This document shows, in pieces, positions 9,329-39,676 of a DNA stretch of 64,000 nt. Within the stretch, counting starts at the first letter, position 1. Each line of letters starts with the position of its first letter. Origin of the DNA: an uncultured Planctomycetota bacterium (GTDB taxonomy: Bacteria > Planctomycetota > Brocadiia > CAIUPP01); assembly GCA_903901045.1 (NCBI GenBank), contig CAIUPP010000060.1:70661-134660 (forward strand), given 5' to 3'. Made by a program: the position numbers and the translations under genes. The notes beneath the pieces were generated by a model. It was not told the DNA's origin. It worked only from the letters and a program-made list of their open reading frames with translations, and did no database searches.

Positions 9329-9435
9329 GACGCGCTGAGGACCCTTCGGCTTCACTCAGGGCAAACAGCGTGCTTCACCAATGCCTTTCCAGTGGCAATT
9401 CGCAATTCGCCAATCGCTATTCGCAAATCATCCGT
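9329..9435 (-). repeat. composite repeat: palindrome plus family W array (copy b)
   Basis: A GCGCTGAGGACCCTTCGGC...CTCAGGGCAAACAGC stem is followed by ATGCCTTTCC and the array AATTCGCAATTCGCCAATC through CAAATCATCCG. A near-identical 106-base unit is at 12192-12297. The array orientation is opposite to copy a. Confidence 0.8.
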
Positions 9436-9451
9436 GCCGCCGTCTTCCCGT

Positions 9452-11367: not shown

Positions 11368-11451
11368 AACGGAGGAATAGCGAATGAAGAATAGCGATTT
11401 GCGAATTGCCAACTGGGGGCGGTCAGTGGAGCGCGCTGTCCCCAGCGCGCT
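11368..11451 (+). repeat. composite repeat: family W array plus AGCGCGCT palindrome (copy c)
   Basis: Array GGAGGAATAGCGAATGAAG, AATAGCGATTTGCGAATTGCC (11368-11413 overall), then the hairpin AGCGCGCT-GTCCCC-AGCGCGCT at 11430-11451. The same two-part order, reversed, is found at 13939-14004 and 33048-33117. The rest of the 257-base gap (11333-11358 and 11468-11509) has CAGATTTCACAGATTGG-type words. Confidence 0.8.
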
Positions 11452-12191: not shown

Positions 12192-12297
12192 AGAGCGCTG
12201 AGTACCCTTCGACTTCGCTCAGGGCAAACAGCGCGCTCCCAACGCCTTTCCATTCGCAATTCGCTATTCGCCAATCGCTATTCGCAAATCATCCGTT
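12192..12297 (-). repeat. composite repeat: palindrome plus family W array (copy d)
   Basis: Almost the same unit as 9329-9435: GCGCTGAGTACCCTTCGAC, CTCAGGGCAAACAGCGCGCT, AACGCCTTTCC, then ATTCGCAATTCGC words to CAAATCATCCG. The final bases overlap the murA 3' end, and the murA stop codon TGA lies inside the repeat word. Confidence 0.82.
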
Positions 12298-13580
12298 CCC
12301 CGCCCCCGCCTTTTCCGGCACCCGCTTGATCCTCGCCCCGAGCCCCGCGAGTTTTTCCTCGATGCGTTCGTAGCCGCGGTCGATGTGATAGACGCGGCTG
12401 ATGGTGGTGGTGCCGCGCGCGACGAGCCCTGCCAGGACGAGCGCCGCGCTGGCGCGCAGGTCGCTGGCCATGACGGGCGCGCCGGAGAGGTAGTCCACCC
12501 CGACGATGATCGCGCTGGAGCCTTCCTTGCGGATATTCGCGCGCATGCGGTTCAACTCCGCCACGTGCATGAAGCGGTCGGGGTAAATGCGCTCGGTGAT
12601 CACGCTGATCCCGTTCGCCAGGGCCAACAGCGCCATCATCTGCGCCTGCATGTCGGTGGGGAAGCCGGGGAAGGAGGCGGTGGTCAGGTCCACGGTCTGG
12701 AACCGCTCGGGGCCGATCACGCGGCAGCCCTTCTTCTCGGGAATCAGTTCCACCCCCGTGGAGCGCAGTGCGTCGAAAACCGCGCCCATGTACTCGCGCT
12801 GCACGTCGCGCACGAGCACATTGCCGCCGGTGAGCGCCGCCGCGACCATGAACGTGCCGGCCTCGATGCGGTCGGGCAGAATCTCGAACTCCGCGCCATG
12901 CAACTCATCCACCCCCTCCACGATCAGGCGCTTTGTGCCGATGCCGCTGATCTTCGCCCCCATCAGAACGAGGAACTTCGCCAGTTCCTGTATCTCCGGC
13001 TCGCAGGCGGCGTCCTCGATGATCGTTTGCCCCTCGGCCAGCGTGGCGGCGCTGAGGACGTTGGCGGTGCCCAGCACGGTGGAGCCGTGCGGCCCGCCGA
13101 GATAAATCTCATTGCCGAACAGCTTGACCGCGTTGGCGATGACGTCGCCATGTTCCACATCCACGTCGGCATGGAGCGCCTTGAGACCTTTCATGTGCAG
13201 GTCGATGGGGCGCACGCCGATGACGCAGCCGCCCGGAAGCGGCACGCGCGCGGAGCCGCGCCGGGCCAGCAGCGGGCCGAGGACGCAGATGCTGGCCCGC
13301 AGCGTGTTCACCAGGTCGTAGGGGGCCACGGTGCAGGATTCATCGCGCACTTCGAGCTCGACGGTGTCGGGCCCGGACCATTCGGTGGAGACCCCGAGCG
13401 TGCGCAGGATCTTCATCATGCTGTCGATGTCGCTGAGGTGCGGCATGTGCTTCAGCGTGACCTTGCCGCGAGCGAGATGGCGGCGGCCATGATCGGCAGC
13501 GCGGCGTTCTTCGCGCCGCTGAGGGCGACCTCGCCGTGAAGCGGAATGCCTCCCTCGACTTCAAATGTATCCATGGTCAT
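12289..13580 (-). CDS. murA: UDP-GlcNAc enolpyruvyl transferase, frameshifted
   Basis: First committed step of peptidoglycan synthesis, PEP plus UDP-GlcNAc in the cytoplasm. The frame from 13446 down to 12289 encodes most of the protein, with the active-site loop [13 protein letters not shown] (the Cys that fosfomycin attacks is present) and [16 protein letters not shown]. The N-terminus [20 protein letters not shown] with GAKNAALP lies in another frame starting at 13580 or 13574 and runs into a stop just after SLAARSR. The two frames join near 13463-13470 (CTCGCGGCAAGG), where one base seems missing before a [11 protein letters not shown] segment. The gene is essential, so a sequencing or assembly error is more likely than a true pseudogene. 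Its ATG overlaps the prmC stop (ATGA). Confidence 0.88.
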
Positions 13581-14542
13581 CGTTCTTTCTGCAACGCGAC
13601 GACGCGCTCGATGCCGGCGCCGTCGCGGACTGTGCGCAGGAGTTTCCAGCCGGCCGATGCGTTTTGCTTCACGAACTCCGCCTCGCCGATTCCGATCTCC
13701 ATGACCAGAAAGCCGCCCGGCCGGAGCGGCAGGCGCGCCTCGCGGAGCAGCCGGCTGATAATTGTGCATCCTTCCGGCCCGCCGCGCAAGGCCAATTCGG
13801 GATCATGGTCGCGGACTTCGGGCTGAAGCGTCGCCATATCGGCGTCGGGGATGTAGGGGGGATTCGAGAGAATCAGGTCGAAAGCGCCCGGCCCGTCCTG
13901 CGCGAGAGGGGCGAGAAGGTCGCCGCGGCGGAGGGAAATATTGATCATTGATGATTGATGATTGATGATTGCCGTTTGGTGGAGCGCGCTGTCCCAGCGC
14001 GCTTCTTCGCGCCCCTCCTTCATCCTTATGTTCTCTCCGGCCAGCGCCAGCGCGTCGGCTGAGATGTCCGTGGCGATGATCCTCGCTTGCGGCAACTCGC
14101 ACGCCATGGCAATGGCGATGCAGCCCGTGCCGGTCCCGATGTCCGCGATGAGGGGAGAAGCTATTCCACGCGCCAGTTCCAGCGCGAGCTCCACCAGCAG
14201 CTCGGTCTCGGGCCGGGGGATCAGCGCGCGCCGGTCGCAGCGGATGGGCAGCGACCAGAACTCCGTGAAGCCGATCAGGTGCTGCACCGGCTCGCGGGCG
14301 AGGCGGCGCTGGACGAGATGGCGGAATGAGGAGTCCCGGTCGGGCGAAAGGAGGAGCGCGGGGTCGATGGTGAGGTGCAGCCGGTCGCAGCCCAGGACGT
14401 GGGCCAGGAGCAGTTCGGCGCACAGGCGCGGGGAGTCGATCCCCGCGCCGGCCAGGGCGGCAGCCGCCCACCGAATCGCCGTGCGGGCGTCGCGAGGGGC
14501 GTCAGTCGAGTTGGAGACCTTTCTCGCGTTCTGCAAACTCAT
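13577..14542 (-). CDS. prmC: release factor glutamine methyltransferase
   Basis: Methylates the GGQ glutamine of release factors using S-adenosylmethionine, fitting its place directly after prfA. Motifs: [14 protein letters not shown] (SAM site) and [13 protein letters not shown] (NPPY). About 321 residues against about 280 for the family. The excess is partly N-terminal (the start at ATG 14542 overlaps prfA by 41 bases) and partly an internal insertion of about 25 residues between [14 protein letters not shown] and [11 protein letters not shown]. That insert, containing [16 protein letters not shown], is encoded by a repeat also found between genes at 33048. It replaces the loop between two beta strands of the Rossmann core and might be tolerated. 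Confidence 0.9.
13939..14004 (-). repeat. composite repeat inserted in frame in prmC
   Basis: Two parts: words ATTGATCATTGATGATTG (13939-13973) and the hairpin AGCGCGCT-GTCCC-AGCGCGCT (13983-14003). Read on the minus strand this encodes [18 protein letters not shown]. The intergenic copy at 33048-33117 would encode [18 protein letters not shown] in the same relative frame. Confidence 0.85.
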
Positions 14543-15590
14543 ACTCGAGCAGCCCCTCAATCAGGGGGTTAAGGTCGCCGCCCATCACGCGCTGGAGGTC
14601 GTGGATGGTGAGGCCGATGCGGTGGTCGGTGACGCGGTTCTGAGGGAAATTGTAGGTGCGGATGCGTTCGTTGCGGTCGCCGGATCCGATCATGGAGCGG
14701 CGCTCCTCGTCGCGGGCGTTCTGCCGCTTGGAGTTGAAGTGCTCCAGCAGCCGCGCCTTCAGCACGCGCATGGCGGCGGCGCGGTTCTTGTGCTGCGAGG
14801 GGGTTTCCTGGCTGCGCGCCTCGATCCCGGTCGGCTTATGGATCAGGCGCACGGCGGAGGAGGTCTTATTCACGTTCTGTCCGCCGGGTCCCCCCGCGCG
14901 TGAGAACTCCATCTCGACATCCGCCGGGTTGATCTCGATATCGATGTCCTCGGTGTCCTGAAGGACCGCCACGGTCACCAGGGAGGTGTGAATGCGCCCC
15001 TGCGACTCCGTCTCGGGAACGCGCTGCACGCGGTGGCCGCCTCCCTCAAAACGCAGGTGGCGGTAGGCGTCCGGCCCCGAAACGGAAAGGGTGACCTCCT
15101 TGTAGCCGTTCAACTCGGTGGGGCGGGCGTCGAGGACGGAGACCTTCCAGCCGCGCCCCTCGGCGTAGCGGGTGTACATTCGCGCAAGGTCCGCCGCAAA
15201 GAGGGCGGCCTCGTCGCCGCCGGTGCCGGCGCGGATCTCCAGGATGGCATCCGCGTTCGCCCCGCTCTCTTCGGCCACCGCCACGCGCTTCACCTGATCG
15301 CGCAGCCGCGTCATCTCGGCGCGAAGGTGGTCGATATCGTCGCGGGCGAGGGATTTCAAATCGGGGTCGCCCTGTTCGTCGGCGAGAATGGCCTCCGCCT
15401 CCTGAAACGCCGCGCGGGCTTTCTTCCAGGCTCGGTAGGGGTCGATGATTTTGACGAGGCGACCGCGGTCGCGGAGATAGGTGGAGTACAACTGCCCCTG
15501 CGCGATGATCGCAGGGTCCACGATCTTGCGCTCAAGGTCCTCGAACTTCAGTTCCATTTCCCTGAGCTTATCGGCCAGAGAGACAGGCAT
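14502..15590 (-). CDS. prfA: peptide chain release factor 1
   Basis: Terminates translation at UAA/UAG. 362 residues. The GGQ peptidyl-hydrolysis motif is in [36 protein letters not shown]-like sequence near the C-terminus and the overall length mark it as RF1 rather than RF2; no frameshift site is needed. Transcribed rpmE-prfA-prmC-murA. Confidence 0.95.
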
Positions 15591-33047: not shown

Positions 33048-33117
33048 AGCGCGCTGGGACAGCGCGCTCCACCAATCAGAAATCATCAATAATCAGTTAT
33101 CAATCATCAATTGCCGT
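33048..33117 (+). repeat. composite repeat, intergenic copy of the prmC insert
   Basis: Hairpin AGCGCGCT-GGGAC-AGCGCGCT (33048-33068), CCACCAA, then words AATCATCAATAATCAG and CAATCATCAATTGCCGTT. The gatA stop codon (33100-33102) and last residues TAIDD lie within the word part. Confidence 0.88.
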
Positions 33118-38300: not shown

Positions 38301-39676
38301 CATCGGTTACGGGGCATGGCGGAGACACGCATTACCAGAAGACGCCGGACGAAGGAACAGCCGTGACGCTGACTGCACCGGCCATAAAGAGTGTTGGAGA
38401 CACCGGCTACCACTTCGTGCAGTGGACGGGCACACCAGGGGGAACGGTCTTATCCGACGGCAATCGGACAATCAGCTTCACGATCCAGGCGGACGCCGCT
38501 GTCACGGCCCAATATGCGACCGATTCCACCACGACCACTACGTCAACAACCACTTCAACGAGTACGACGACTACAACAACTACAACAACCACAACAACCA
38601 CAACGCTGCCTCCGACCACAACCACGTCGACAACGACGACGACTTTGCCGCCGCCGACCACGAGCACGACTACCACCACAACCAGCACGACGACGACCAC
38701 GACCCTGCCTCCGACTACGACCACGTCGACCACGTCGACAACGACGACCACAACCAGCACGACCACGACCACGACATCTACCACCACGACCACGACGCTG
38801 CCTCCGACCACGAGTACGACTACCACTACGACCTCCACGTCAACGACCACTTCAACGAGTACGACGACCACAACGACAATGCTGCCTCCGACCACGACCA
38901 CGTCGACAACGACGACTTTGCCGCCTCCGACCACGAGTACGACAACCACCACGACCAGCACAACCACGTCCACGACTACGACCACGACATCTACCACCAC
39001 GACTACGACGTTGCCGCCCCCCACGACCACCAGCACAACTACAACCAGTACTACGTCAACGACGACCAGCACGACAACCACCACTACGACAATGTCCAAG
39101 TCCATCACAGTGCTCAATCCCTCGGACTCGGGGATCAGCTTTGAGCGCGGGCAGACGTACAACATCGAGTGGACTTCCACCCTGCCGATGGGCACGAAGA
39201 TGAAAATTGCGCTTGTGAAGGGAAGCGGCGGGACGTGGACGCTTTCCACCGGCGCATCGAAAAGCCCGTTCAAGTGGACGGTTGGCAAGGCGATCAAGGG
39301 GGTGGCGATGTACGTCGACGGGGACGATTACAGGATTCGGGTCAGCACGCTCAACGACAGCGACTCGGATCAGAGCGACAACGTCTTCGCCATCGGCGTT
39401 CTGGAATCGCTCACAGTCGCCGGCCCGACAACCGTTACAGGCGGAGGAGCGCCGGCGCAGTTCACCTGCACGGCTCAGTACAACTTCGGCGCGGACCGTG
39501 ACGCCACCAACGCGGTCAAGTGGAGTTGCTCAAAAATCAAGGGGGTGAAGATAGGCAAGGGGGGGCTGCTGACAACCGTGCCGGTTACTGGGTCCCAACC
39601 CTGCACGATTACGGCAACCTATGGAAAGAGTGCGCCGCCCGCACCGGGCACCCTCGGAATCACCATTACCCCTTGA
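35393..39676 (+). CDS. giant secreted M6-type metalloprotease with Thr-rich linker
   Basis: 1427 residues. Signal peptide to about residue 36 (CAAIGLIFSTTAAMA). M6 (immune inhibitor A-like) protease domain: zinc motif H356-E-N-G-H360 in CHENGHMLCGFPDLYDYN. Then a fibronectin type III-like segment (about 560-660), a beta-rich lectin-like region (about 660-960), and a 188-residue Thr/Ser linker (1046-1233) broken by seven LPP(P) blocks. The C-terminal part is like Ser-Thr-rich GPI-anchored/KNH domains (ITVLNPSDSGISFERGQTYN) with an Ig-like end. Extracellular, probably degrading proteins. No sorting signal is recognised at the C-terminus. Confidence 0.9.
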   Translation: MTHENRTRIINSSTPLGMIILCAAIGLIFSTTAAMAAPFDQQIAFTQPDGTVVQLHGWGDEFYAVFETLDGYTVAFDPGKKAYCYATLSNDGSRLLPSPAQVGKDAPATLGLARHLRMSPAGRKTQVGERYARWNEATRLSERWDAQKARMHVAETPSAQGGPVLAPPPSTTTGSKTGLCMLIDFDDDVATVPRADIDSFCNGAGYTGYGNNGSVKQYYLDVSNSTLTYTNVVTVYIRIPNSLHPKSYYNDTSKDSGVQANLLIRDAITIMKALPNYATEILPTFSALSVDGGNNVIACNVFYAGGNGGVWQYGLWPHSWSLYNVGAQELSAGGKKVYRYQVTNIGSSLELGTFCHENGHMLCGFPDLYDYNYDSTGGAGMFCLMNSGGHGTNPVQICAYLKRAAGWAATTELTSSSALTATLASSGAGLNHFYRYAKPAVPTEYYLLENRQQSGRDASLPASGVAVWHVDELGDRDNQSLVHNATHANYEITLVQADNLWDFEGYVNSGDPYDLFYSGNTTITYSNVLTDGTAPGAQWWDGTNSGLKLHHFSASGTTMTVEVGVPAPVLDPEPAGTSGTSNTLSWAAVPNADKYWVEYDTTNTFPSPDANSGWIANLSRQFTGLAGGTTYWYRAKSRIAMPAVATTWLQTSWASFLTDGLTNTAADAASNSVTLSSASNVATNTVGSSLYSYGPRVGKTEFNVYQCATNSTLTRIEVYLSISTSTALQFVVYEATSYTGTYNQVCSATSDSSGTGAGFFSSGTISVPLVSGRYYFIGIAFQGTATDAVDIASAGSTTAFGVAREGGLSATAYPAPVAFNGSTIADNASRLYQRLTTSVPTYSASGTAVSTAITPGSVDRWTTLTFNKTTPANTTLTVDVLDSANNVLASNVASNTDLNSLGITQSSIKLRANLATGNTAISPALEDWMVRWVSPSSYAESAWSSAEFSKQLLPCSLDVTSTPISGVSIASVTGHGGDTHYQKTPDEGTAVTLTAPAIKSVGDTGYHFVQWTGTPGGTVLSDGNRTISFTIQADAAVTAQYATDSTTTTTSTTTSTSTTTTTTTTTTTTTTLPPTTTTSTTTTTLPPPTTSTTTTTTSTTTTTTLPPTTTTSTTSTTTTTTSTTTTTTSTTTTTTLPPTTSTTTTTTSTSTTTSTSTTTTTTMLPPTTTTSTTTTLPPPTTSTTTTTTSTTTSTTTTTTSTTTTTTLPPPTTTSTTTTSTTSTTTSTTTTTTTMSKSITVLNPSDSGISFERGQTYNIEWTSTLPMGTKMKIALVKGSGGTWTLSTGASKSPFKWTVGKAIKGVAMYVDGDDYRIRVSTLNDSDSDQSDNVFAIGVLESLTVAGPTTVTGGGAPAQFTCTAQYNFGADRDATNAVKWSCSKIKGVKIGKGGLLTTVPVTGSQPCTITATYGKSAPPAPGTLGITITP
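38525..39091 (+). repeat. low-complexity Thr/Ser-coding tract
   Basis: About 190 consecutive codons, nearly all ACN or TCN/AGY, with seven CTGCCTCCG-type LPP interruptions. All four Thr codons are used in mixed order, so it is maintained at protein level rather than being a fresh microsatellite. Confidence 0.9.

Follow-up and report, generated by a model that had tools for sequence, protein, structure and literature searches.

The prmC gene of this draft genome (4.77 Mb, 94% complete) carries an in-frame insert that joins an array of 7-bp words to a GTGG-headed hairpin. The hairpin very probably belongs to a REP (repetitive extragenic palindrome) family, a miniature, non-autonomous element that would travel as single-stranded DNA through the action of a RAYT (REP-associated tyrosine transposase, TnpA_REP), one copy of which entered prmC. 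The element is of an ordinary kind; its place is unusual, and so is its statistically firm partner, the heptad array.

A 21-codon insert in PrmC

The gene for the release factor glutamine methyltransferase (13577..14560, minus strand, 327 aa) lies in the window, by which we mean the whole 64,000-nucleotide stretch analysed. Its product has the PrmC_N and methyltransferase domains and matches E. coli PrmC in PDB and fold comparisons. The insert of 63 bp occupies 13940..14002 by MAFFT alignment, although its ends may move by about 9 bp with the alignment: it corresponds to residues 187-207 by MAFFT and to residues 190-210 by tblastn. A 21-residue gap stands at this position in 27/27 PrmC proteins aligned from the same class, among them that of the sister genus (G001), and the stretch is also missing from E. 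coli PrmC on comparison. The tblastn match to the sister genus breaks at PrmC residues 189/211, where the subject bases are contiguous (7770/7771). The preliminary description had reported a palindromic element in frame inside prmC, and its sequences and coordinates are borne out. It had also estimated about 25 extra residues; that the residues are extra and in frame holds, but their number is 21, because the KEGREE segment pairs with native residues of the relatives.

The insert reads, in order, ATTGATG heptads (13940..13971, plus strand, period 7 by Tandem Repeats Finder), the GTGG head (13979..13982, plus strand) and the hairpin AGCGCGCTG-TCC-CAGCGCGCT (13983..14003, plus strand), with a 9-bp stem and a TCC loop. 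In the AlphaFold model of PrmC (mean pLDDT 89), residues 185-203 fall below 50, and this stretch sits between a helix (168-181) and a strand (208-212). Among PDB entries the model is best matched by E. coli PrmC bound to RF1, with a TM-score of 0.95 by target length; the catalytic NPPY motif is preserved, as are the remaining invariant columns. As modelled, the insert occupies a disordered loop and the rest of the fold is preserved, and the enlarged PrmC presumably still works. Most likely the 21 extra residues form a loop that the protein tolerates and that does nothing by itself, and would be neutral.

A misjoined repeat, produced during assembly or binning, would be a concern for any short multicopy sequence in a draft of 154 contigs with 3% contamination. 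Native PrmC nevertheless resumes on both sides of the insert in a single frame that aligns to the relatives, the prmC-prfA neighbourhood agrees with that of the sister genus, and three more genes carry the same kind of in-frame insert; we regard an artefact as very unlikely. In the sister genus, GACGGAC-type heptads lie directly behind prmC (locus L054, 2440-2580).

The hairpin is a dispersed, structurally conserved family

The core AGCGCGCTGTCCCAGCGCGCT occurs twice in the window, at 13983-14003 (plus strand) and 33048-33068 (minus strand), where shuffled sequences lead us to expect none. The second exact copy also has the GTGG head (33048..33072, minus strand) and is preceded on its 5' side by a heptad array (33073..33111, minus strand, period 7), confirming the earlier report of the same element between genes at 33048-33117. 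The third site, reported at 11368-11451, likewise stands: GAATAGC-type words (11371..11423, plus strand) lie 5' of a variant of the core with a TCCC loop at 11430-11451 (11426..11451 with its GTGG head, plus strand). A genome-wide search of the kind the preliminary description had proposed found 36 exact cores, 35 of them preceded by GTGG, and no match to the reversed-pattern control; with the head required and up to three mismatches allowed there are 47 copies.

Listed by mismatch count alone, with pairing ignored, the two-mismatch variants show compensatory double changes in four of six places, and the TCC loop is kept in all. Beyond a consensus TG ahead of GTGG and another TG after the core, the flanks have for the most part nothing in common, and some copies form inverted, REPIN-like pairs with the heads outward (for example at L014 and L096). 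A scan for hairpins that follow various heads recovered 57 with GGTGG, mostly with loop TCC, and 48 with GTAG, mostly with loops CATG, TTTA or TTCA; control heads such as GTCG and GCTG gave 12 and 13 hairpins with no preferred loop.

The core, with up to one mismatch, is absent from all 57 relatives searched. No exact core was found in IMG/VR or in a collection of 84,980 species, from which records of the source genome were possibly left out, and we accordingly rejected a phage or another species as the source of the hairpin.

A strong G+C hairpin of which several copies lie just past stop codons could in principle be a transcription terminator or RNA regulatory element that is repeated by chance. 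We consider this very unlikely, as the common 3' flank is TTG without a T-run, copies occur inside genes, and the hairpin matches no Rfam family. A known RNA family was also rejected for the window, where only two tRNAs were found. The hairpin may nonetheless have a secondary role of the kind suggested for REPs, at the ends of RNAs or in their stability.

In-frame copies in other genes

Comparisons support in-frame copies of the REP in at least three more genes. A YfhO-like membrane protein has gained up to about 50 residues from arrays plus REP; the matches in relatives are interrupted at this very point, and so is the match in a paralogue that lies nearby in the same genome. An alpha/beta hydrolase carries an 11-residue REP insert that is absent in four relatives, and a RecQ-like open frame (L003, contig C11) contains three REPs, the first at a gap in the sister genus. 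Further candidates are a molybdopterin oxidoreductase (L096), a membrane protein (L098) and a site near the start of a T2SSJ-like gene (L101), identified by their open frames and, for two of them, by Pfam domains. Elsewhere in the window, at 38526-39092, CGACCACG-type units recur in a long and degenerate repeat whose period is in multiples of three and which probably encodes a repetitive protein stretch.

The REP can be read through in all six frames without meeting a stop codon, and the copies are read in differing frames and strands among genes, the very listing of frames that had been suggested as a check. Because the in-frame copies use different reading frames, no peptide is conserved, and a conserved encoded peptide was rejected. 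A functional, selected PrmC peptide, a domesticated loop, is highly improbable: it would suit an insert that preserves the reading frame of a gene which every good-quality relative conserves, but the peptide is predicted to be disordered, and elsewhere the REP is read in different frames and on different strands. The combination of differing frames and six open ones suits tolerance better than selection for a peptide.

RAYT genes and membership in the REP class

The genome encodes RAYT transposases. Two genes (on contigs C7 and C139) score above the NCBIfam NF047646 cut-off, a third RAYT-like gene (C29) is 59% identical to that of C7, and a fourth, weaker Y1 protein (C54) falls under the cut-off. 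The genes on C7, C29 and C139 each adjoin other hairpins with GT(A/G)G heads, and in this incomplete assembly none of the three is flanked by the prmC-type stem. The closest case, C7, shares the GTGG head and an ATCC loop and has a different stem. A RAYT gene of the sister genus (L117, contig C209 of G001) lies amid about ten GTGG-CACAGCCG hairpins.

In published definitions a REP has GTAG or GTGG 0-2 nt 5' to a stem that is fully paired over 7-20 nt and closed by a 2-5 nt loop (PMC6006769), or is a GC-rich palindrome headed by GT(A/G)G (PMC2817692). The family described here agrees in its head, in stem and loop size, in its inverted pairs and in the presence of RAYT genes. Its 35-47 copies are fewer than the >100 per genome that are usual for REPs (PMC2817692), a soft criterion set against a count that does not include all sibling stems. 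GTGG-headed REPs and REPs inside genes have already been published for the PVC bacterium Opitutus terrae, whose GTAG-20 family is mostly GTGG and in which GTAG REPs within genes are most numerous; DNA repair genes, too, are on record with REPs inside them (PMC3733652). The preliminary description had proposed an undescribed system, a proposal that we do not retain: the hairpin fits the REP definition, RAYTs are present and intragenic GTRG REPs are known in the PVC superphylum.

With GTAG-tagged repeats such as GTAG-20 the family shares the GT(A/G)G head, a short G+C-rich stem, a loop of 2-5 nt, dispersed and inverted copies, RAYT genes, in-frame copies in genes and a PVC host. It differs in its new stem and loop sequence, found here in this genome only, in the heptad array that about one copy in four has on the 5' side of its head, and in that its cognate RAYT was not found. 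The likeness to Rickettsia palindromic elements drawn earlier was a fair one, since RPE-4 and RPE-6 are counted by Di Nocera et al. (2013) among CGTC-tagged REPs, which are said to be without a dedicated transposase (PMC3733652). Like RPE-1, RPE-4 and RPE-6, the palindromes described here lie in frame in protein genes and add tens of residues; unlike those elements and the CGTC REPs, they are tagged by GTGG rather than CGTC, are unrelated in sequence and occur in a genome with RAYTs.

Heptad arrays are coupled to the head side of the hairpin

The order of words and then hairpin, which had been seen to recur, is strongly enriched. In 12/47 REP copies a forward heptad array is present on the 5' side of the head, no more than 80 nt away, against 0.96 expected (p=1.5e-10), on a null of random intergenic positions that relied on a crude custom gene caller and on contigs partly chosen for REPs, a choice that, if anything, raises the expected number. 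Reversed arrays were found on that side within 80 nt in 0/47 copies, and on the 3' side in four (p=0.008).

Sequence stretches totalling 400 kb represented the genome beyond its exact-copy search. Across the window and L076-L095 (about 455 kb of the genome) we counted 36 heptad arrays of several word classes, and ACGGA lies near the 5' end in 15 of them versus 1.7 expected. The words vary between copies (ATTGATG, GAATGCA, GAATGAC). Cyanobacterial short tandemly repeated repetitive (STRR) heptamers are dispersed arrays with a 7-bp unit, and passing mentions of these were all that we found on bacterial heptad arrays in the literature. The arrays here are similarly dispersed and of the same unit length; they differ in having other words, and in that several word classes share the 5' ACGGA and sit beside a REP. 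Having found no description of it, we believe that the coupling of REPs to 7-bp word arrays is new; it appears to be undescribed.

Arrays of the GAATGCA type occur in many other bacteria, and 2/85 of those in other genomes are followed by a GT(A/G)G hairpin no more than 110 nt away, which is rare yet exceeds the 0.0006 per 110 nt of the control. In a MAG of Verrucomicrobia subdivision 3 (L206, CAIWJG010000374.1, and L185), in-frame GAATGCA arrays lie inside neighbouring long open frames and repeatedly follow LLLDYWPLG-like and YGQR-like sequences, a pattern suggestive of repeated insertion at corresponding positions in related genes. Such arrays in paralogous genes may point to an unnamed, widespread class of coding-compatible repeats. 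It is possible, if rather less probable than not in our estimation, that heptad arrays are themselves dispersed elements, oriented, with a defined 5' end and the REP at the 3' end, that enter protein loops in frame.

A still more doubtful proposal is that array and REP form one composite mobile unit that is kept translatable, like a Rickettsia palindromic element, with the prmC insert as such a composite. The orientation-locked association, the presence of both parts within the single 63-bp insert and the joint occurrence of arrays and REP in the YfhO-like gene speak for this. So does a pair of composites in the window, in which heptads are followed by a REP-like hairpin with another palindrome in its loop (CCCTGAGCGAAGTCGAAGGG): these lie at 12195..12299 and 9332..9438 (both minus strand; families D6 and D18), are 91-92% identical, words included, and appear to be REP derivatives. 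The words otherwise differ between copies, however, 35/47 REPs have no array and most arrays have no REP, as would be expected of separate parts that join. The position of the arrays on the head side may reflect preferred landing sites, slippage beside the hairpin or a composite element.

Proposed origin of the prmC insert

The origin that we favour is transposition of the REP by a RAYT. The dispersed copies, compensatory stem changes, REPIN-like pairs and RAYT genes with REPs of their own support it. Counting against it are the lack of a RAYT with the exact stem, the low copy number and the absence, among the 47 copies, of any position upstream of the head enriched for a CT/CA/CC cleavage dinucleotide; the heptad coupling, too, lies outside the usual picture of REPs. 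We infer both that a RAYT moves the prmC-type family and the order in which array and REP were inserted in prmC. Under RAYT transposition the REP would travel as single-stranded DNA, a copy would enter prmC beside an array of 7-bp words or along with one, and copies would persist in genes only where their overall length and the frames used leave the protein open. The prmC insert would have survived because the REP is stop-free in six frames and the ATTGATG words are open on the prmC strand, and because its total of 63 bp makes 21 whole codons at a site in the loop between a helix and the next strand.

Our analysis contributes a GTGG REP family, some copies of which lie inside genes, from a genome distant from the model organisms, and it shows how REP-type repeats can lengthen a conserved protein while leaving it unbroken. 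Moreover, the strict spatial coupling of REP and heptads could reveal the insertion sites of RAYTs or the origin of the arrays.
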